From: a virus | Strand: one strand, 5' to 3' | Virus record (IMG/VR): IMGVR_UViG_3300020191_000027 | Span: 1 to 40,015 of that record | DNA: 40,015 bases | Shown here: positions 13,855 to 34,969 of the stretch, piece after piece | Numbering within the stretch: the stretch's first letter is position 1 | How the letters are laid out: each line of letters opens with the position of its first letter | Program-made: the position numbers and the translations under genes | Notes under the pieces: generated by a model | Told to the model about the DNA's origin: nothing | The model's database searches: none | The model's input: only the letters and a program-made list of their open reading frames with translations

Positions 13855-14060
13855 AGTTTCCAAACCCGTACACCAAGGAGCCCATCCTTGGTGGCGGGGT
13901 ACACCCGCACTTTTACTTTGGCGCTACGGGCCAATTGAACTACTACATAGACCATAAACGCGGGTCTTAGCGTAGGAAGGAAGAAGCTCTCTCCCGGTGA
14001 CATCCAGTCAAACGGGAGAATGAACTCAGGTTCCTCATTCACTGAGGGGGTCTGTGACAT
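13851..14060 (-). CDS. Small protein at the end of the leftward operon, 69 aa, unknown
   Basis: Starts at an ATG inside the 3' end of the primase-helicase gene (26-base overlap) and ends by overlapping the stop of the convergent 2017-aa gene by 4 bases. The sequence SPGESFFLPTLRPAFMVYVV followed by VKVRVYPATKDGLLGVRVW has the look of a compact alpha/beta domain with a basic C-terminus and is unlikely to be a chance frame. Position suggests a replication-associated accessory protein. I do not recognise a named family. Confidence 0.65.
   Translation of the reverse strand: MSQTPSVNEEPEFILPFDWMSPGESFFLPTLRPAFMVYVVVQLARSAKVKVRVYPATKDGLLGVRVWKL
13871..13893. terminator. Perfect hairpin between convergent transcripts (possible terminator)
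   Basis: CACCAAGGA, loop GCCCA, TCCTTGGTG: a perfect 9-bp stem just after the end of the rightward late operon and inside the last gene of the leftward operon. There is no U-tract on either side, so it is not a classical intrinsic terminator. Its place where two long operons converge makes a termination or RNA-protection role plausible. Confidence 0.4.
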
Positions 14061-16869
14061 CCTTCACATCCATCTTAAACCAGTAGCAGTTGACCGGGCC
14101 CACGTCTGACGCTTTCTGCCAGTACGCACCTAAACGCTTCTTCTTGTTGTCGTGGATCAGCACCCCGGCTTCGCGCAAATTGTGCTCAAACTGAGATACG
14201 TTGATCTTGCGCTTGGGGTCCGACAAGTACCTCTGCAACGCCACGCGGTTGACGTAGACAATCCCTGTGTCGATCTCCTTACGCCCGATGAACTCCTTGA
14301 AGTAGACCGGTGCGTCTATCACATCCTTGCCGTCTACCTTGAGGAACAGACCGATGTTCTCGTTCATGAACGTGTTGAGCATCTCAATGTAGTCTACGTT
14401 CTGGTTACCCACCTTATCGCGGTCATAGATCATGTCATCAAGGATGATTTTGTATACCCGGTTTATGTCTATGTTGATGATCCCGGCCCTAATAGCAATG
14501 TCACCCCCAGCAAAGCTAGACGCAATGAAACTGCGATAGAACCGGTACCGAGTGTGCTTGCCGTAGGACGCGTCAAACCGCTTGCCCCAGTACTCCACAA
14601 GTTCTGCAACTTGATCCAGCCCAAGCTCGTAGATTGCCTTGAGGTACTCAACTCCTGCATACCCGTAGTTTTTGTTGAACGGGTTGATGATGCGGGGGGC
14701 TTCGTCCGGGTTGCTCACAAACACCTCTGGCTTACGAAACATAAACTGGATGAAGCGAGCGTACTCACCTTCTGGGTTGGCCTTGTTGACCTTGAGCAGC
14801 ATGTTGAGATCTGAGTTGGAGTTCATCATGCAGATCAGCTTGGCCTGATTCTCGATATCACGTTCAGCGTTATGACTGCTGTACATGCGGATCTTGCCCT
14901 TGCCGGTGGACACCATGAAGATAAAGTTTGATAGGGTCTCTGGCAGGATGTTGTGTACCTCATCCACCCCCATAAGGATGTTCTTAAGCGTCAAGTAGCG
15001 TTGAACCAGCGCATTCTGCGTCGCGCCGCGTTCTTGCGGAGCCAGCAACTGAGGATCACCCCAGACACTTAAACCGGAGTACAACGTGCCGGACTTGCCA
15101 GCGCCCGACTCACCCGTGAAACAAACTGTAACGCCCGGCGTGTTGGTGAACTCCATCAAAGGAGAGCCAAAGCCCGTAAAGAGCCCAAGGGCTATGTGCT
15201 CCATGCCCTCACCGTTAAGTGCATTTGCCGATTCCTGCCACTTCTCGTAAGAGCCTACGGGGTTGAGAAGTGCGGCAAGCTTCTTAATCGACATCGCAGC
15301 GGCTGTCCTGCGAACTTCTCCATCATAGGTAACTTCACGGTTGCCCATGACAAACGACATCTTGTCATCCGTCCATCCCATCTGAGTCTGCATGACATCA
15401 GCAGATTGAATCCCCTTGAGGTACTCATTCCAACGCAGAGTGTAATCAGCCATACGGTTCACCATTGTTGGATTAGGAGATGCCGGTGTGAGGTCGTGCA
15501 TGGCCAAGGTCTCGCGGAACTTGTCGTTACCAGCAATGTGCTTGACCGGCAGGTAAAACTCACGCTCGGGGTCTTTGGCAAGTAGAGCTCGCATAACCAG
15601 CATTGCCCCATCCTGCTTACCGTACATACGCGCTACGGGGTAAAAGATGTTGCGACAAATAAGATAGGGATCGCCTTGGACCCACTTGCCGTTCTTGGCT
15701 ATCTCCGGTGGCGGCGTAAACCAAATACCCCCTTCACTCCAAGAGTATGGGGCAACTTGATCCGGCAGTTCGGGCATATCACTGGGCATCTTCTCAGGGG
15801 GCAACGTCTTGACCCGTCGTCCTAGTGCCAGCGGAGAACCAATGCTGCCCTTGTACGGGCAGTCACCACATCCTGCTGGAAAGATCCCCTCAATGATGGA
15901 ACACTTTTGTGGGCCAGAAACCTTTTGCGTCTCCTTGGCCTTGGCAATAGTGTCATTTGAATTGTAGTCTGGATGGCCCTTGGAGAACTCATGGATGGCC
16001 TGCTCGCCATCTACGCAGCGCACTGCGATGGACAACCCCCAGAACCACTCGTTGTAGTTCTGTTTTTCTGGTTCTTCCAACAGACGTTTGATCTGAGCAC
16101 AGCCACGATCCGATAGGCTCTTCTCTACGATGTCCGCGTAATGTGACTCGATGTCGTCATAGGCTTTCTTGCCCACGGCTGCGGTGGACTCATCCAACCC
16201 GCGCTCCACCGTAGCCAAGATCTGCGCTACAGGCGTCTCAACCACCGTCGTTACTGGCGCAGTGTACGCAACGCCGTACAGTACAGCTTTGATCTGCTCC
16301 AGATTGTGCTGCACAATCTCCTCACTAATCATGTGAGTTGGGCTAGGCGGGGCAGTCTTAAAGTTGAATGTGTCAGGGCAGCGCATCAAACGGGACGCAT
16401 CAGCGGTAACCACCGCATCAATCTTCAGCCCGTTGCTGATGCAGAACTGTTTAAACTTCTCGGCCAGCGGACGCCATTCGTCTACGCTAATGTCTTTATC
16501 CAAGATCCAGTACGCCTGAATCCCGGTGCCTGAGTTTACAAGCGTGGGGTACGGCAGCGTTGTACTACTAATGACTTGATCAAGATGTTCCAGCGCAGCT
16601 TCCTGCGTGGGGTATTCTTTTTCTTCCCCAACATCCAAATCTACAAAGAATGACTTCGCTTGTAGTGCGTATTTTGCTTGCCGACTGAACCCACTAAAGC
16701 TGTTAGGGGACACATAGACATCCCCTTCTTCGGCATTGAAAGCCTCTGTTAGCTGAAGCAACTCGTCAAGATTCTCTGCAAACCTGCTCTTCATTGCGCC
16801 GTTATGTAAGACGGCTGCGCAGTAGATGCCTGTTGAGGGCATCAACTTTTCGTAGAATTCTTTTTTCAT
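14035..16869 (-). CDS. Primase-helicase (AEP-like primase + P-loop helicase), 944 aa
   Basis: The N-terminal domain has VDLDVGEE with D77 and D79 as a DxD metal site, NSGTGIQAYWILD (112-124) and DASRLMRCPDTFNFK, the motifs of archaeo-eukaryotic-type phage primases. A Gln stands where many relatives have His in the second motif. A Cys cluster (FPAGCGDCPYKG) follows near 340. The C-terminal half has a Walker A GESGAGKS with K592 and a downstream hydrophobic-GVDEVHN Walker B, in the style of DUF927-type helicases. It would synthesise primers and unwind DNA at the fork. AGGA lies 6 bases before the ATG. A strong hairpin separates it from the HTH gene upstream, so its expression may be tuned separately. 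Confidence 0.85.
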   Translation of the reverse strand: MKKEFYEKLMPSTGIYCAAVLHNGAMKSRFAENLDELLQLTEAFNAEEGDVYVSPNSFSGFSRQAKYALQAKSFFVDLDVGEEKEYPTQEAALEHLDQVISSTTLPYPTLVNSGTGIQAYWILDKDISVDEWRPLAEKFKQFCISNGLKIDAVVTADASRLMRCPDTFNFKTAPPSPTHMISEEIVQHNLEQIKAVLYGVAYTAPVTTVVETPVAQILATVERGLDESTAAVGKKAYDDIESHYADIVEKSLSDRGCAQIKRLLEEPEKQNYNEWFWGLSIAVRCVDGEQAIHEFSKGHPDYNSNDTIAKAKETQKVSGPQKCSIIEGIFPAGCGDCPYKGSIGSPLALGRRVKTLPPEKMPSDMPELPDQVAPYSWSEGGIWFTPPPEIAKNGKWVQGDPYLICRNIFYPVARMYGKQDGAMLVMRALLAKDPEREFYLPVKHIAGNDKFRETLAMHDLTPASPNPTMVNRMADYTLRWNEYLKGIQSADVMQTQMGWTDDKMSFVMGNREVTYDGEVRRTAAAMSIKKLAALLNPVGSYEKWQESANALNGEGMEHIALGLFTGFGSPLMEFTNTPGVTVCFTGESGAGKSGTLYSGLSVWGDPQLLAPQERGATQNALVQRYLTLKNILMGVDEVHNILPETLSNFIFMVSTGKGKIRMYSSHNAERDIENQAKLICMMNSNSDLNMLLKVNKANPEGEYARFIQFMFRKPEVFVSNPDEAPRIINPFNKNYGYAGVEYLKAIYELGLDQVAELVEYWGKRFDASYGKHTRYRFYRSFIASSFAGGDIAIRAGIINIDINRVYKIILDDMIYDRDKVGNQNVDYIEMLNTFMNENIGLFLKVDGKDVIDAPVYFKEFIGRKEIDTGIVYVNRVALQRYLSDPKRKINVSQFEHNLREAGVLIHDNKKKRLGAYWQKASDVGPVNCYWFKMDVKDVTDPLSE

Positions 16870-29067: not shown

Positions 29068-30393
29068 TTACTCCTTAACTTTTACTTTGCGTCCCGCAGG
29101 GGGTACGAACTGCTCACTCTCTAACACCAGCCACAACGTCGGGATAGTGGTCTCCCATTTCAGATCATGTTCAAGATACCCGTCAGTGATCACCACTACG
29201 CACGTAGGGTTATAGCCGTTGCTCTCGATATGCTCCACCACACACGCTGCCCGTGTGCCGCCACCACCTCGCGGTTTGAGATGCTCACGCAGACCCTTGT
29301 AGTCGTCAGCGAACACTTGATCTGAGCAGATACTTGTATCCCAGAACACAACGCGCACTGTTTCAGGATCTAGCGCCTCGACTGCATCGAGTACACCTTC
29401 GACAGCCTTGTTGAACAGATCGCCGTACATAGATCCGCTTGCGTCTACTGCAAAGATAACCTCTTTGATACGCTCATCAAACCGGCTTGGGAACAGATCG
29501 TCGTCTACCATGCGTCGCCGGTTATACCTACGCCATGAATACTCCTCAGTCCCTCGCGTAAACTCCGTAAAGAACTGCGCGGTCTCCTCTTTCCAATGCA
29601 CCTCGGGCTTGCCAGCGTCGATGAACACACGGGGGAGATTCATACCCAACACACCAGCCAACGCGGTGGCCTGCTGGATAGCCTCTGTGATCTGGGCCTC
29701 CAACTCCTCCATCTGCTGATCGGTACGCTCGACCTCGATATGCTCGTCTTGTGTCTCAAGGGAATACTTGCGCCCCTTGATGATCACTGCACTAGCCTGT
29801 GGAGCCTCCTGCTCAACGCCATCGTCGTCCTCAGCTCCACCATCCTCATCTTCATCAGATGAAGTGTTACCTGTGTCACCATCTTGTTGCCCGCCAGCGG
29901 GCGACGGGGGACTTGGTACACGAACAGGTTGACCCTCCTGCTCCCCGTCAGGGTTACGGCCCTTGGTTAAGAACTCATAGACCTCGTTGACAGACCAGCC
30001 CATGAACTTCGCATCGTACAAGTGCGGCTCGGGCAGCTTGATCCACGCCCCATAACCTTTAATCTGATAGATGATCCCATTGACCACATAGTCCATCGCA
30101 GCGTTAGCTGTCTGTGCATCCTTGCTCATCAGTCCGCCAAAGCGCAGCATGTGCTTGAGCATGATGTGCAGGTTCTCATGGAGAGCGACACCAGTTACCT
30201 CCGCCTGTGTCTTAGTCCTCATGAACTCGTAGCCATACAACTTATCCACACCGTTCGTGCATGCGGTAGGAACATGCTCAACGATCTCAGACCGACCCAA
30301 CAACACGGCGCTGCTATAGAACCGCGTCTCCTCGTTGGACAGCAATGTGATGTGGGCCTTCTGCAAAGCCTTTGTTAACTGTGCGATATCCAT
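29068..30393 (-). CDS. VWA-domain protein with HExxH metallopeptidase-like domain, 441 aa
   Basis: Start set at the ATG sharing a base with the ATPase stop (TAATG); a frame 12 codons longer lies inside the ATPase gene. The N-terminal domain has VTGVALHENLHIMLKHML, an HExxH motif (H72, E73, H76) in a helix, as in predicted metallopeptidases of the DUF2201/COG3864 type. A linker with a very acidic patch (SSDEDEDGGAEDDDG) follows. The C-terminal VWA domain has FAVDASGSMYGD, the MIDAS DxSxS with D317, and VVVITDGYLEHDL. MoxR-type ATPases work with VWA partners to remodel or load metal into targets (RavA-ViaA, CobS-CobT, NorQ-NorD). A phage target is unknown. Confidence 0.88.
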   Translation of the reverse strand: MDIAQLTKALQKAHITLLSNEETRFYSSAVLLGRSEIVEHVPTACTNGVDKLYGYEFMRTKTQAEVTGVALHENLHIMLKHMLRFGGLMSKDAQTANAAMDYVVNGIIYQIKGYGAWIKLPEPHLYDAKFMGWSVNEVYEFLTKGRNPDGEQEGQPVRVPSPPSPAGGQQDGDTGNTSSDEDEDGGAEDDDGVEQEAPQASAVIIKGRKYSLETQDEHIEVERTDQQMEELEAQITEAIQQATALAGVLGMNLPRVFIDAGKPEVHWKEETAQFFTEFTRGTEEYSWRRYNRRRMVDDDLFPSRFDERIKEVIFAVDASGSMYGDLFNKAVEGVLDAVEALDPETVRVVFWDTSICSDQVFADDYKGLREHLKPRGGGGTRAACVVEHIESNGYNPTCVVVITDGYLEHDLKWETTIPTLWLVLESEQFVPPAGRKVKVKE

Positions 30394-31520
30394 TACAGCA
30401 ACTCGTAGTTCTTGTTGGTCATCTGCCACTTGAGGATCTCAGGGTTCTGATCCGTCAGCTTCTTAGTGCGGCTGATCTTGGTCAGCATCGTGATGAAGAT
30501 CGCTTTGACCTCTGACGAATCACAGCGATTGATGAACCGCATGTACTTGCTCAGTTCGTCCTGCGTCGTGATGTCTCGTGTGGCAGTACACACCATGTGC
30601 AGCAGTGCAGCCATTTTCTCCGGCACACTGATCGTATCCGGCGCAGCGATCACATCCTCGAACGTGTGCAACTCGCTGCTCAGTGCAAGGTGCGTGATCA
30701 ATGACTCGGCTGCACTACCGCCTATCGTGCCGTACAGCGCAGCGCGTGTCAGGTTCGGGCCTGCGATATGACGTTGCTTAACCACGGGGTCACACTTGGT
30801 CATCGAGCGCAGCGACAGGAACGAGCGTCCCTTCTTAGCGGGGTTGAACACCCAGTCGTTCTGCTCCAACTCTTTCGGGCTCATCTGCAAGTAGGACGTG
30901 AAGATCTGTCCACGGTTGAACATGGCCCACGAGAGCAGTCCCGAATCAATCCCTATCTCGCTGGCGTAGCCCAGATATGACATCGCGTCAGGCCCGACGT
31001 ACTTATACATCTGCACACGGTTGATACCGTGATCCTGCAACGCGTCACCCACACCATCTGTGGGATTGTTAGACGTGGAGAACACCTTAGTGCCCTTGGG
31101 AAACGGCCTGTTGCCGACCATCCGCTCCAGCTTGATCGCCTGCCATACGATCTGTAGCAGCTTGGGAGACTTCAACTCCTCGTCGAGCATGATGATCTTG
31201 GGACGTGGGTCGTCCATCTGAAAGATGTCGCCAATGTAGGTGACGATCTTCTTCAACTCCCTGTCCAAGTACCCAGCCTGCACGTCGGGGACGTCCTTCA
31301 CCGGACACTCTACGTAGATATAGTTGTACTGGTCATCAGCGTAGTGGTCGCCCGGCTTGCGCCACTTGTCACCGTAGTACCGCGCCATGCCAGCTAGAAG
31401 TGAACTCTTGGCGGTGCCCGGCACGCCCAAAAACTGTGGCGTGATCTCTTCACCGAATAGCGCAATGGCCTTGATCGCCTCATCGAAATTGACGATGGGG
31501 GCAGTGTTAATCATGCTCAT
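30393..31520 (-). CDS. MoxR/CobS-like AAA+ ATPase, 375 aa
   Basis: ATG with GGAG 7 bases upstream. Walker A is LGVPGTAKSSLL with K38 and S39. Walker B is KIIMLDEELKSP with D113 and E114. Sensor 1 is VFSTSNNPTDGVGDAL near 147-160, and the following GINRVQMYKYVG fits the MoxR group. The C-terminal half is helical with arginine-rich stretches. This family forms rings and uses ATP to change the state of a partner carrying a VWA domain, which is encoded directly downstream and coupled by TAATG. The unit probably acts early in infection on a host or phage complex. CobS-like genes are known from cyanophages. Confidence 0.88.
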   Translation of the reverse strand: MSMINTAPIVNFDEAIKAIALFGEEITPQFLGVPGTAKSSLLAGMARYYGDKWRKPGDHYADDQYNYIYVECPVKDVPDVQAGYLDRELKKIVTYIGDIFQMDDPRPKIIMLDEELKSPKLLQIVWQAIKLERMVGNRPFPKGTKVFSTSNNPTDGVGDALQDHGINRVQMYKYVGPDAMSYLGYASEIGIDSGLLSWAMFNRGQIFTSYLQMSPKELEQNDWVFNPAKKGRSFLSLRSMTKCDPVVKQRHIAGPNLTRAALYGTIGGSAAESLITHLALSSELHTFEDVIAAPDTISVPEKMAALLHMVCTATRDITTQDELSKYMRFINRCDSSEVKAIFITMLTKISRTKKLTDQNPEILKWQMTNKNYELL

Positions 31521-31546
31521 CTCTCTACTCCTCTACTGATTGTTAA

Positions 31547-32467
31547 TTAGACCTTGACACCGAACTTGGCGAGGATGTCGTCCACGCCAGACTTGACCAC
31601 GGCTCGCATACCGTCCGACTCACGCAGGACATCCACTGATACATCTTGTAATACACGTTCGAGCGCGGCTCGGGCCTCCTCGATACGCGGGTCGTTGGTC
31701 ACGTTAATAGACTTGTACGTGTCGCACAGTTCTAGGGCTTTCTCGATAGTCGTATCGTAGATACGCTTACGATCCGTCTTGACCTTGCCGTTCTCAATCA
31801 CCGTGTCGGTCGTGCAGGACTTGCTGATTGATGTCATCAGCGACACCATCGTAGCGATCTGCTTCTCCATCATGCCGTTGATGAGGTTGGGCAGCTGCTT
31901 GTTGAAATGCTCTTGTAACTGTGCCGCAGACTCCAGCGACAGTTGGTTACGGAAGTCACCGGCTGGAACCTCTTGGGTGAACAGCTTCACGCTGAACTTG
32001 TCGCGTACTTGATCCGCTGACGGGTAATCCTCCCGCTTGAACATCTCTCCTGCGAATGCAGTGTTCGACAGCACCATGGGATACGCAGTTTCAAACTTGC
32101 TCACCAAGTCAGCATGCTCAACAAGCCGCTCGTTGAACTCCTGCATGAACCGTGAGATACGCATGTTAGGGAGGAAGTCCCAGTTGCCAGCCCACGGAAA
32201 GGTCAGACGGTTGCACCAGTTCGTCCACGATGCGCGGTTCTTAACCAACGCTTGATGCTCCATACAGTTCTTCATCAGATACTTGATGACCTTGGCACTG
32301 TTGGGGTCAGCGTTCTTTGAGGAAGTCACCTCGTCGCTGATCTCTTGATCCTGCTTGGTCGCAGACCAGACGCGAGTCTGTACATATACAAGGATGCCGC
32401 TGCTAGCCAGCGACGTGATGGTCTCGGGGCCGGTCAACACCGGCAGGGTTACAGCTGTATCGTTCAT
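31547..32467 (-). CDS. Unknown first protein of the AAA+/VWA module, 306 aa
   Basis: The start is placed at the second ATG (MNDTAVTLPVLTG), which has CGGAG at proper distance; the first ATG two codons earlier is too close to it. Mostly helical, with EISDEVTSSKNADPNSAKVI, NWCNRLTFPWAGNWDFLPNM and VLRESDGMRAVVKSGVDDIL. It may belong to the DUF3150-type proteins that I recall beside phage MoxR and VWA genes, but this is from memory of context. It is the first gene after a strong promoter and precedes the ATPase by 26 bases. A dyad GTTACAGCTGTATC covers codons 3-7. Likely a third component of the module. Confidence 0.75.
   Translation of the reverse strand: MNDTAVTLPVLTGPETITSLASSGILVYVQTRVWSATKQDQEISDEVTSSKNADPNSAKVIKYLMKNCMEHQALVKNRASWTNWCNRLTFPWAGNWDFLPNMRISRFMQEFNERLVEHADLVSKFETAYPMVLSNTAFAGEMFKREDYPSADQVRDKFSVKLFTQEVPAGDFRNQLSLESAAQLQEHFNKQLPNLINGMMEKQIATMVSLMTSISKSCTTDTVIENGKVKTDRKRIYDTTIEKALELCDTYKSINVTNDPRIEEARAALERVLQDVSVDVLRESDGMRAVVKSGVDDILAKFGVKV
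32448..32461. promoter_or_regulatory. Dyad GTTACAGCTGTATC (candidate operator)
   Basis: An imperfect copy (one arm with two mismatches) of the dyad GTTACA-N2-TGTAAC seen in the control region. It lies inside the first codons of the 306-aa gene, 62 bases past the -10 of promoter P2. Confidence 0.4.
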
Positions 32468-32522
32468 TTGCATGCTCCGTTATGATTGTGACTGCTCAAC
32501 TCATTACTCGACTGTAGAAGAT

Positions 32523-33059: not shown

Positions 33060-33073
33060 GTTACAGGTGTAAT
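33060..33073. promoter_or_regulatory. Dyad GTTACAGGTGTAAT (candidate operator or leader hairpin)
   Basis: A near-palindrome between promoter P1 and the first early gene, directly upstream of its ribosome site and 66 bases past the -10. It matches the GTTACA-N2-TGTAAC dyads at 33741, 33807 and 33938 with one mismatch. Confidence 0.5.
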
Positions 33074-33138: not shown

Positions 33139-33167
33139 ATTATAGCAGGTTTCAACTTTAAAGTCAA
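33139..33167 (-). promoter_or_regulatory. Strong leftward sigma70-type promoter P1
   Basis: Minus strand: -35 TTGACT (33162-33167), 17-base spacer, perfect -10 TATAAT (33139-33144), preceded by TGC. It shares TTGACTTTAA and TGCTATA with P2, so the two look like copies of one early promoter design. It faces the first gene of the leftward operon. Confidence 0.9.
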
Positions 33168-33343
33168 GTGTTCTATAGTTATTACTGGGTAAGCGGCGGG
33201 GAGAAAGCTAGAAGAATCAATGGGTTAGGTGGGGAAGTTAGAGACGTTCCGGCGTTCCGGCGTTTTTGGGTTTATTAATGGTACAGGAACAGGGCTGTTT
33301 GAGAGGGTTGCGGGTTTTGTAAGTGGTTGAAATCTTTAGAGAT

Positions 33344-33381
33344 AGTTAATTTTTTAAAATATTTATTTATTTATTTATTAG
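33344..33381. other. AT-rich tract (possible DNA unwinding element)
   Basis: A run of A and T including TTTTTTAAAATA and then repeated TTTA units (TTTATTTATTTATTTATT), almost without G or C, in a region otherwise balanced in composition. It sits between the two groups of GGAAC iterons, as an unwinding element does in iteron-type origins. Confidence 0.5.
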
Positions 33382-33740
33382 TACAAAAAGGGCCTTTGTT
33401 CCGCTGTTCCGGGTTTATAAGTACAGTTCTCTGGGAAGAGGAAGTCAGTTTGTCGGTCATATTTTTTCTCCATTTGCTGACCTCTGTCTTGCTCACAGAT
33501 TTTTCCCAGAAACTTGTGAAAAATGCCGGAACAGCCGGAACGCAGGAACGCGAGGTCTAAGTCATTGATTTTATAGGGGGGTTTGCGTTCCTGAACGAAC
33601 CTGTACATATAGAACGCTAGGAACAGGAGCGTTAGTCCAATCTGGACAATAAGCCGGAACACGCAGGAACAGCCGGAACAGAGCATTTTATAACTCTATA
33701 TTGGACGTATACGCAGGAACAGCCGGAACGCTAGGAACAG

Positions 33741-33754
33741 GTTACATATGTATA
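33741..33754. promoter_or_regulatory. Dyad GTTACATATGTATA
   Basis: An imperfect copy of the GTTACA-N2-TGTAAC dyad, directly following a GGAAC triplet. Confidence 0.45.
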
Positions 33755-33806
33755 CTCTGGACTTATCAGCCGGAACAGCCGGAACGCTAGGAACGCAGCG
33801 ACAGTG

Positions 33807-33820
33807 GTTACATGTGTAAC
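33807..33820. promoter_or_regulatory. Dyad GTTACATGTGTAAC
   Basis: Perfect arms GTTACA and TGTAAC with a 2-base centre; the flanking G and C extend the match to GGTTACA/TGTAACC. It follows the second GGAAC triplet and is a probable binding site for a dimeric regulator. Confidence 0.6.
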
Positions 33821-33843
33821 CGTACGCGTGACGCATCGCGCAT

Positions 33844-33978
33844 GATGCCCCACCCCGAGACCAGTGCCTCTCCCTTCCATGCGAATGGTGCCCGACCCCA
33901 AACGATGCCCCACCCAGAGATAGGCGCGTCTGGCTGGGTTACAGCTGTAACACGAAAATTGCAGACGATGCCCCACCC
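33844..33978. repeat. Three direct repeats of GATGCCCCACCC
   Basis: Exact copies at 33844-33855, 33904-33915 and 33967-33978, spaced 60 and 63 bases. Copies 2 and 3 extend upstream to ACGATG, and copies 1 and 2 extend downstream to GAGA. A frame on the minus strand reads GWGI at each copy, but it begins at a GTG within a hairpin and has no ribosome site, so I treat the repeats as DNA sites. Confidence 0.65.
33938..33951. promoter_or_regulatory. Dyad GTTACAGCTGTAAC
   Basis: A perfect 14-bp palindrome between the second and third copies of the GATGCCCCACCC repeat. It is the cleanest member of the dyad set. Confidence 0.6.
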
Positions 33979-33988
33979 TGCGAAACCA

Positions 33989-34073: not shown

Positions 34074-34106
34074 AAAAAAAGCCAGCTCTGCGATGCAGAG
34101 CTGGCT
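34074..34106 (-). terminator. Intrinsic terminator of the two-gene unit
   Basis: Minus strand: GCCAGCTCTGC, loop ATC, GCAGAGCTGGC, then seven T. This perfect 11-bp stem and U-run is a textbook rho-independent terminator. It ends transcription of the 242-aa and 36-aa genes and shields the control region from read-through. Confidence 0.93.
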
Positions 34107-34240: not shown

Positions 34241-34969
34241 TTAGGCCATGCCGAGGATGACAGCGCCCTGCTTCATCCACTTGTTGAAGGCAGCTTCGTC
34301 CTTGACGGGGAACGCCTCATCCTTGGCCCACTTGTACGCAGCCTTGATAGGCTTGAACGCGTTCTCCAACTTCTTCGTCGGATCGTTTGTCTTGGCACCG
34401 CCCTTGGCCTTGCTCTTGAGGCGCGATATGGTAGTGGTTGCAGCACGTCCCATCTTCTTGCGAACCGGCAGGATGACCTGCTCAACCAGATCCTCATCGT
34501 CAGTCTTGAACCGCTGACGGGGGTCGACGATGTTGCCGGTGGTCGTGAAGTGGCGATACTTCTCAGGATCAATGTCGATGAGCTTACCGTCAGCATCCTT
34601 CTGTGTACGAACGTCTACCCACATCAACGCGCCAGTCGGTGTCGGCACCTTGGCAAAAGTGATCACGTAGTTCTGTGAGTAACGCAACCGATCAAGCGCC
34701 ATGTTCCTCGCAACCTTCATGAAGTCCCTGAAGGCATCAGAGGCGGTGTCCGTCTTCTGCTTGATGTTGCCCTCGGCATCCTTGATCTCAGTCGTCGGCA
34801 ACTTCTTGAGGAAGCGAGCGAACTTCTCCTGCAACGGCTCCATAGCCTTGAGGTTCTCGTCAGTGATCTCTGCACCGGAACCAATGAGTACACTCATCTC
34901 TTCGAGGTCGTGCTCGCTGAAGCCGCAAGCAGCCAACGAATCCGTCATAACTGTTTGAACTTGAGTCAT
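34241..34969 (-). CDS. Unknown phage protein, 242 aa
   Basis: ATG with AGGAG 7 bases upstream. The N-terminal half is helical and acidic (CGFSEHDLEEMSVLIGSGAE). The middle has ARNMALDRLRYSQNYVITFA and PTGALMWVDVRTQKDADGKL. The C-terminal third is very basic (KKMGRAATTTISRLKSKAKG) and ends in a charged helical part. The basic tail suggests nucleic-acid binding. It stands alone with its own terminator, separate from the main early operon, and is probably expressed strongly. No family recognised. Confidence 0.75.
   Translation of the reverse strand: MTQVQTVMTDSLAACGFSEHDLEEMSVLIGSGAEITDENLKAMEPLQEKFARFLKKLPTTEIKDAEGNIKQKTDTASDAFRDFMKVARNMALDRLRYSQNYVITFAKVPTPTGALMWVDVRTQKDADGKLIDIDPEKYRHFTTTGNIVDPRQRFKTDDEDLVEQVILPVRKKMGRAATTTISRLKSKAKGGAKTNDPTKKLENAFKPIKAAYKWAKDEAFPVKDEAAFNKWMKQGAVILGMA

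Follow-up and report, generated by a model that had tools for sequence, protein, structure and literature searches.

Does the dense cluster of GGAAC repeats in this uncultured aquatic bacteriophage mark the place where it starts copying its DNA, or does it serve packaging, transcriptional control or partition? In the window, the whole 40,015-bp stretch of DNA that was analyzed, GGAAC occurs 81 times, a total at the level of shuffled sequence. Within the 549 bp from 33246 to 33794 there are exactly 19 copies, 14 in plus and 5 in minus orientation, in agreement with an initial annotation that had reported at least 19 in two orientations. When all pentamers of the window are ranked by clustering, GGAAC comes first (19 per 549 bp; runner-up, 14), and the maximum per 549 bp was 7 in 200 dinucleotide shuffles of the whole window and 6 (mean, 1.3) in 2000 local shuffles. 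The two triplets described as having exact 9-bp spacing were recovered (33716/33725/33734 and 33772/33781/33790), and two further triplets show steps of 10 and 9 bp (33656/33666/33675) and of 9 and 8 bp (33528/33537/33545). The TTTA run that the copies were said to surround (33360–33379) is indeed bracketed by iteron pairs in minus orientation (33246/33254 and 33398/33406). The array and its flanks contain the following features, from left to right.

33139–33167, minus strand: sigma70-like promoter, TTGACT-17-TATAAT with a TG-extended -10 (11/12 matches)
33215–33227, plus strand: IHF-consensus site AATCAATGGGTTA (consensus WATCAANNNNTTR), outside the left iterons
33246–33258, minus strand: left iteron pair (GTTCC at 33246 and 33254; 8-bp step)
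33286–33290, plus strand: one GGAAC iteron of opposite orientation, 32 bp beyond the last left iteron
33320–33332, minus strand: one-mismatch IHF-like site (TTTCAACCACTTA), close to where relatives have their left IHF site
33340–33379, unstranded: AT-rich tract with TTTA repeats (38/40 A/T), candidate DNA unwinding element
33398–33410, minus strand: middle iteron pair (GTTCC at 33398 and 33406)
33528–33549, plus strand: right iteron triplet R1 (33528, 33537, 33545), 122 bp from the middle pair
33558–33570, minus strand: IHF-consensus site AATCAATGACTTA, in the gap from R1 to the single minus iteron
33587–33591, minus strand: single inverted iteron, 42 bp past the last R1 iteron
33620–33679, plus strand: right iterons R2 (33620, 33656, 33666, 33675)
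33716–33738, plus strand: extra iteron triplet, exact 9-bp steps
33772–33794, plus strand: extra iteron triplet, exact 9-bp steps, a near copy of the 33716–33738 triplet (start to start, 56 bp)
34080–34106, minus strand: intrinsic terminator, right flank

The description of this DNA as non-coding and heading the early operon is borne out, since the promoter flanks it on the left and the minus-strand terminator on the right; ORFs inside the array region (e.g. 33378–33686) did not cluster with ORFs of relatives. The promoter lies ~80 bp left of the first iteron and is directed into the early operon, with the array behind it. An Rfam search of the array region gave no match, a tRNA search found none, no DNA-level similarity to named phages was detected, and the window's IMG/VR record has no end repeat.

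Several other elements are found in the neighborhood. Palindromes of the family GTTACANNTGTAAC lie at 32448–32461, 33060–33073, 33741–33754, 33807–33820 and 33938–33951 (8 matches with at most 2 mismatches, compared with 1.2 expected); similar palindromes, GTTACAAGTTGTAAC and CTTACAAGTTTGTAAG, occur in the relatives G004 and G005, and the family may represent operators of a phage regulator. Right of the array, the repeat GATGCCCCACCC is present four times (33835–33983), three of the copies 60 bp apart, and is adjoined by AACTGGTTTCG-like sequences, which are present in relatives too. Two contigs, L190 (G028) and L191 (G029), carry tandem GACCCgcct and CCTTGcccg at 9-bp steps immediately to the right of the array and end there. 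A trio of genes at 29068–32473 encodes a MoxR-like ATPase, distantly related to ATPases of N4-like phages, a VWA/DUF2201 protein and a 308-aa protein; the trio is found in seven of eight complete relatives and is absent from G015.

Relatives were collected by means of the large terminase, and further contigs by means of the HTH protein and the primase-helicase. Those found through the terminase have GGAAC clusters a few kb upstream of terL, and the whole contigs of seven relatives share the primase-helicase, a 103-aa HTH protein, a 276-aa protein, an SNF2 helicase, an exonuclease and PolA. Arrays were detected 51 times, 44 of them non-redundant, and follow a shared layout. The left half consists of minus iterons at 8- to 12-bp steps, an AT-rich tract and one or two more minus iterons, often with an opposite-orientation iteron 42–45 bp from the first left iteron; nearly every array has an AT-rich 40-mer (31–40 A/T) upstream of its middle iterons. 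The right half follows after a spacer of 103–137 bp and consists of R1 with two or three plus iterons, then in most cases a single minus iteron, and R2 with further plus iterons. The two extra plus triplets at the right end of the window's array go beyond this common layout. In the stretches read of four named TerL relatives (DSL-LC04, 023Pt_psg01, HTVC023P and Pag-Yong1), no comparable array was seen.

Distances between the blocks are multimodal, with modes about one helical turn apart. From the middle iterons to R1 they fall at 103–104, 109–117, 120–125 and 132–137 bp (with one at 96), from R1 to the single minus iteron at 41–44 bp in 25 of 31 arrays and at 53–54 bp in two, and from there to R2 at 12–13, 21–23 and 31–34 bp. 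Rayleigh tests of this phasing give very small values; because the genomes share ancestry, the discrete jumps in spacing are preferred as evidence. The proposal that a 9-bp step places the sites on nearly one face of the helix is only roughly true inside the triplets, because their steps range from 8 to 12 bp and a 9-bp step slips by ~50 degrees each time; the clean phasing is found instead in the distances compared between arrays. That spacing rather than sequence would be kept in relatives was borne out, as the layout is constant in the 44 arrays while the iteron varies, and the original suggestion of an origin or a cooperative binding array is thus well supported by layout and phasing.

Plasmid centromeres also consist of clustered short repeats with helical phasing, and by this likeness the array could serve, as a centromere does, in partition or nucleoid anchoring. 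The family-matched genes include no partition ATPase or GTPase, no integrase or plasmid-maintenance gene was found, and partition would explain neither the AT-rich tract nor the association with an initiator described below; we consider this reading highly implausible.

The variation in the iteron itself is concerted. All iterons of G015 are GGCAC, and G004 and G005 have mixed GGAAC/GGCAC arrays. GACAC is found in L037, G028 and G073, TGCAC in G027, CGCAC in G072, AGAAC in G078 and G081, C/TGAAC in G076, and TGAAC in G086. The pentamer switches across the entire array and the layout is unchanged. Judged from these sequences, such concerted change under fixed geometry is the expected trace of a sequence-specific binding protein.

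The iterons of the initial description were confirmed, but two perfect IHF-consensus sites (33215–33227 and 33558–33570) had been overlooked. Only three perfect matches to the consensus occur in the 40-kb window, and two of them are these, at 33215 and 33558. Across the relatives, 36 of the 44 arrays contain the consensus, with 60 occurrences in total; shuffling gave a mean of 2.1 and a maximum of 6 in 100 trials. Relative to R1 the sites lie at about -179, -190, -200, -211 and -221 (the left site spanning -179 to -224 overall) and at +22, +33 and +44, that is, in helical steps. Judged by the consensus, these sites would be expected to bind IHF. DnaA boxes are not enriched in the 44 arrays (4 found versus 4.4 expected from shuffles), strict boxes being present in three, and an origin driven by DnaA was rejected on this ground; two genomes do have TTATCCACA, in both at an identical distance from the first iteron. 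Runs of TAG, AAG and TAA in the AT tract that could be read as a DnaA-trio are present in many relatives, but this reading was also rejected, as the strand is inconsistent (TTA runs in G015 and others). Cumulative GC skew, which had been proposed as a check, reaches its minimum within ~0.3–4 kb of the array in the contigs examined; the support is weak, since the minimum coincides with a switch in gene strand.

IHF sites would also fit DNA packaging, in which the array would be a pac or cohesive-end site bound by the small terminase; phage lambda cosB likewise pairs spaced terminase sites with an IHF site. The array is located just upstream of terS and terL, which lie 1.5–2 kb to its right, and contig ends are frequent between array and terL: of the 25 contigs that are 8 kb or longer and have their upstream end no more than 7 kb from terL, 17 end within 2.1 kb of terL. 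Repeats or a physical genome end could be the cause, and the ends may merely mirror the tandem repeats that adjoin the array. In G015, however, the array is ~3 kb from terS with several ORFs in between, the AT-rich tract is left without explanation, and no column of terS separates CAC-type from GAAC-type arrays, an observation that also led us to reject TerS as the iteron binder. We consider a packaging site very improbable.

We scanned the proteins present in all these phages for conserved columns that follow iteron type. In the first three non-GGAAC genomes, no such column was found in the HTH, 276-aa, 139-aa or exonuclease proteins; SNF2 and PolA each have one, and the primase-helicase has four, including the clearest, in its C-terminal motif KKxRLxxGW. 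The coordinates of this protein in the window are as follows.

14035–16869, minus strand: 944-aa candidate initiator with an N-terminal primase-like part, a DUF927 helicase and a C-terminal winged helix
14038–14403, minus strand: C-terminal winged-helix domain (residues 823–944), the proposed iteron-binding domain
14140–14145, minus strand: codons of K909 and K910, of which K910 varies with iteron type

In a check with 17 added genomes, residue 910 is lysine in all 31 RGAAC genomes and arginine in the CAC-type genomes G015, G027, G028, G029, G072 and G073; it is the sole such column among 66 conserved ones. The rule from the first genomes that arginine predicts CAC held in two new ones, G073 (GACAC) and G072 (CGCAC), for which predictions were made before their arrays were read. 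Against the association, the mixed arrays of G004 and G005 go with K910. Arginine is also found in G076 and G086, of a distant clade with C/TGAAC iterons, which weakens the simple idea that residue 910 distinguishes A from C at position 3 of the iteron. When the tree is built from sequence other than the C-terminal domain, the iteron label changes about five times, and the three independent, well-supported pairs all agree (sign test, p = 0.25); the pattern of association is thus strong but its independent support modest, because three pairs cannot reach significance alone.

The same comparisons bear on transcriptional control, in which a regulator of the phage, for instance the 103-aa HTH protein, would bind GGAAC next to the early promoter and switch the early genes. 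A strong minus-strand promoter does lie close to the first iteron, and the HTH gene is common to all complete relatives. However, the majority of iterons are far from the promoter, the palindrome family GTTACANNTGTAAC is more operator-like than the GGAAC array, and the recognition helix of the HTH protein is identical in G035 (GGAAC) and G028 (GACAC), with no HTH column tracking the switch. We consider this alternative very improbable and, like packaging, less likely than a replication origin. The identical helix also speaks against the HTH protein as the binder, which had been nominated earlier along with the Myb-like and 242-aa proteins. The 242-aa protein nominated with it fares no better: it occupies the slot between array and terS (34241–34969) and has no family match, and in relatives unrelated 190- to 290-aa proteins without assigned function fill the same slot, all read toward the array.

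From sequence and structural models, the best candidate for the iteron binder is instead the 944-aa primase-helicase, acting through its C-terminal winged helix. Its DUF927 match (Pfam PF06048) scores 73.3 bits against a curated cut-off of 22.6, and a PDB search with a profile built from the helicase plus the C-terminal region matched SCCmec Cch (5dgk, E 4.5e-6) and SaPIbov1 Rep (8tch, E 1.2e-5). Although the helicase part of the larger model is weak (pLDDT 76, pTM 0.38), Foldseek still ranks Cch and SaPIbov1 Rep first. Modeled alone, the C-terminal domain is confident (pLDDT 87.5, pTM 0.80), and its best fold matches are Cch, SaPIbov1 Rep and oriT-bound TcpK (E 0.01–0.03). In the model, K909 and K910 lie where the strand that runs into the wing ends. 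The gene is ~16 kb from the array in the window and 17–22 kb in relatives.

These matches connect the phage with several known systems. Cch belongs to a staphylococcal chromosomal cassette and is not known to have a fused primase domain; it has a DUF927-class helicase, is the best PDB match by both sequence and fold, and resembles the phage domain in its C-terminal winged-helix region, although with only ~16% identity. PICIs are mobile islands that carry an integrase and a phage-inducible repressor and parasitize a helper phage; in their pri-rep-ori replicons, with initiators such as SaPIbov1 Rep and the E. coli PICI Pri-Rep, autonomous replication is driven by initiator plus origin. Origins of PICIs consist of two short-iteron sets flanking an AT-rich region, and in the SaPI/PICI pri-rep-ori module the origin is directly 3' of the initiator gene (PMC6092414); iterons are recognized by the C-terminal domain of SaPI Rep (PMC7581432). 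The phage arrays likewise have two iteron sets flanking an AT-rich region, and SaPIbov1 Rep has a homologous helicase and a similar C-terminal fold (TM 0.58 by query). In contrast to these islands, the phage has its own terminase, portal and virion genes as well as PolA and no integrase among its family matches, its origin would lie 16–22 kb from the initiator gene rather than directly 3' of it, its arrays have conserved, phased IHF sites and a five-block layout, and iteron specificity varies across the whole lineage.

TcpK of plasmid pCW3 reads tandem 9-nt boxes mainly through its beta-wing (PMC6137059). Its winged-helix fold is similar (5vfx; TM 0.64 by target, probability 0.99, Foldseek E 0.03), and the wing used for DNA reading corresponds to the place of K909/K910 in the phage model, although TcpK is a small dimeric relaxosome protein and no initiator. 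Phage P4 alpha is a primase-helicase-initiator whose C-terminal domain binds the type I iterons of ori and crr. It works similarly to the 944-aa initiator proposed here but has a helicase of another family and belongs to a satellite phage, and PDB sequence and fold searches with the 944-aa protein returned no match to it. The role of P4 alpha at ori is cited in PMC6092414. Like iteron plasmid origins, the phage array has direct repeats, an AT-rich region and IHF-consensus sites, but it differs in that DnaA boxes are not enriched. Those plasmid origins combine short direct repeats, an AT-rich region, IHF sites and sometimes DnaA sites, with iterons usually near 17–22 bp and Rep proteins of another fold.

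More distant phages were also compared. The initiator of Pseudomonas phage Rollin (L404, a partial genome record) is 25% identical to the 944-aa protein, and eight of its nine TATGCAA copies fall within 420 bp (260–680), three plus copies at 22-bp steps and three minus copies at 9-bp steps, adjoining an IHF site at 324 and an AT tract. This region is likely the origin of a distant relative. Rhizobium phage RHph_TM29 has an AT-rich stretch between two IHF-consensus sites, near which no iterons were recognized. A search for the host by scanning genome contigs with a single protein found nothing, and a profile scan found three metagenome-assembled bins with no array in them.

The conserved layout, the phasing, the IHF-site enrichment, the AT tract, the helicase homology and the residue-910 association are all computed results. 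From them we infer binding by the initiator, melting of the AT tract, helicase loading and a start of replication at the array. The 944-aa primase-helicase would bind the GGAAC iterons via the wing of its C-terminal winged helix, and IHF, probably the host's, would bend the DNA, bringing left and right iteron clusters together in a fixed helical register. Melting would occur in the AT-rich tract that separates the left iterons from the middle ones, the helicase part would load there, and the primase part and the phage PolA would begin synthesis. We assign this reading a probability of roughly 0.8; the region is very probably where the phage starts copying its DNA. Of the marks of an iteron origin, direct repeats and an AT tract are present, and the covariation suggests binding by the cognate initiator. 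On the strength of sequence comparison, we conclude that this phage lineage probably has, in the array, an iteron origin resembling those of SaPIs and PICIs, with IHF sites and an iteron specificity that turns over.

Whether this large lineage carries a rapidly switching origin code, in which pentamer and wing residue change together under a rigid, phased, IHF-bent layout, is an evenly balanced question. If it does, origin-code switching perhaps keeps co-infecting relatives from firing each other's origins. Because the layout is fixed while the pentamer and the wing residue vary, the set of arrays amounts to a natural experiment on how initiator and origin specificity change together. A SaPI/PICI-like origin in a broad lineage with its own virion genes would link the replication modules of satellites and phages, and it suggests that the origins of uncultured phage genomes can be found by sequence alone.
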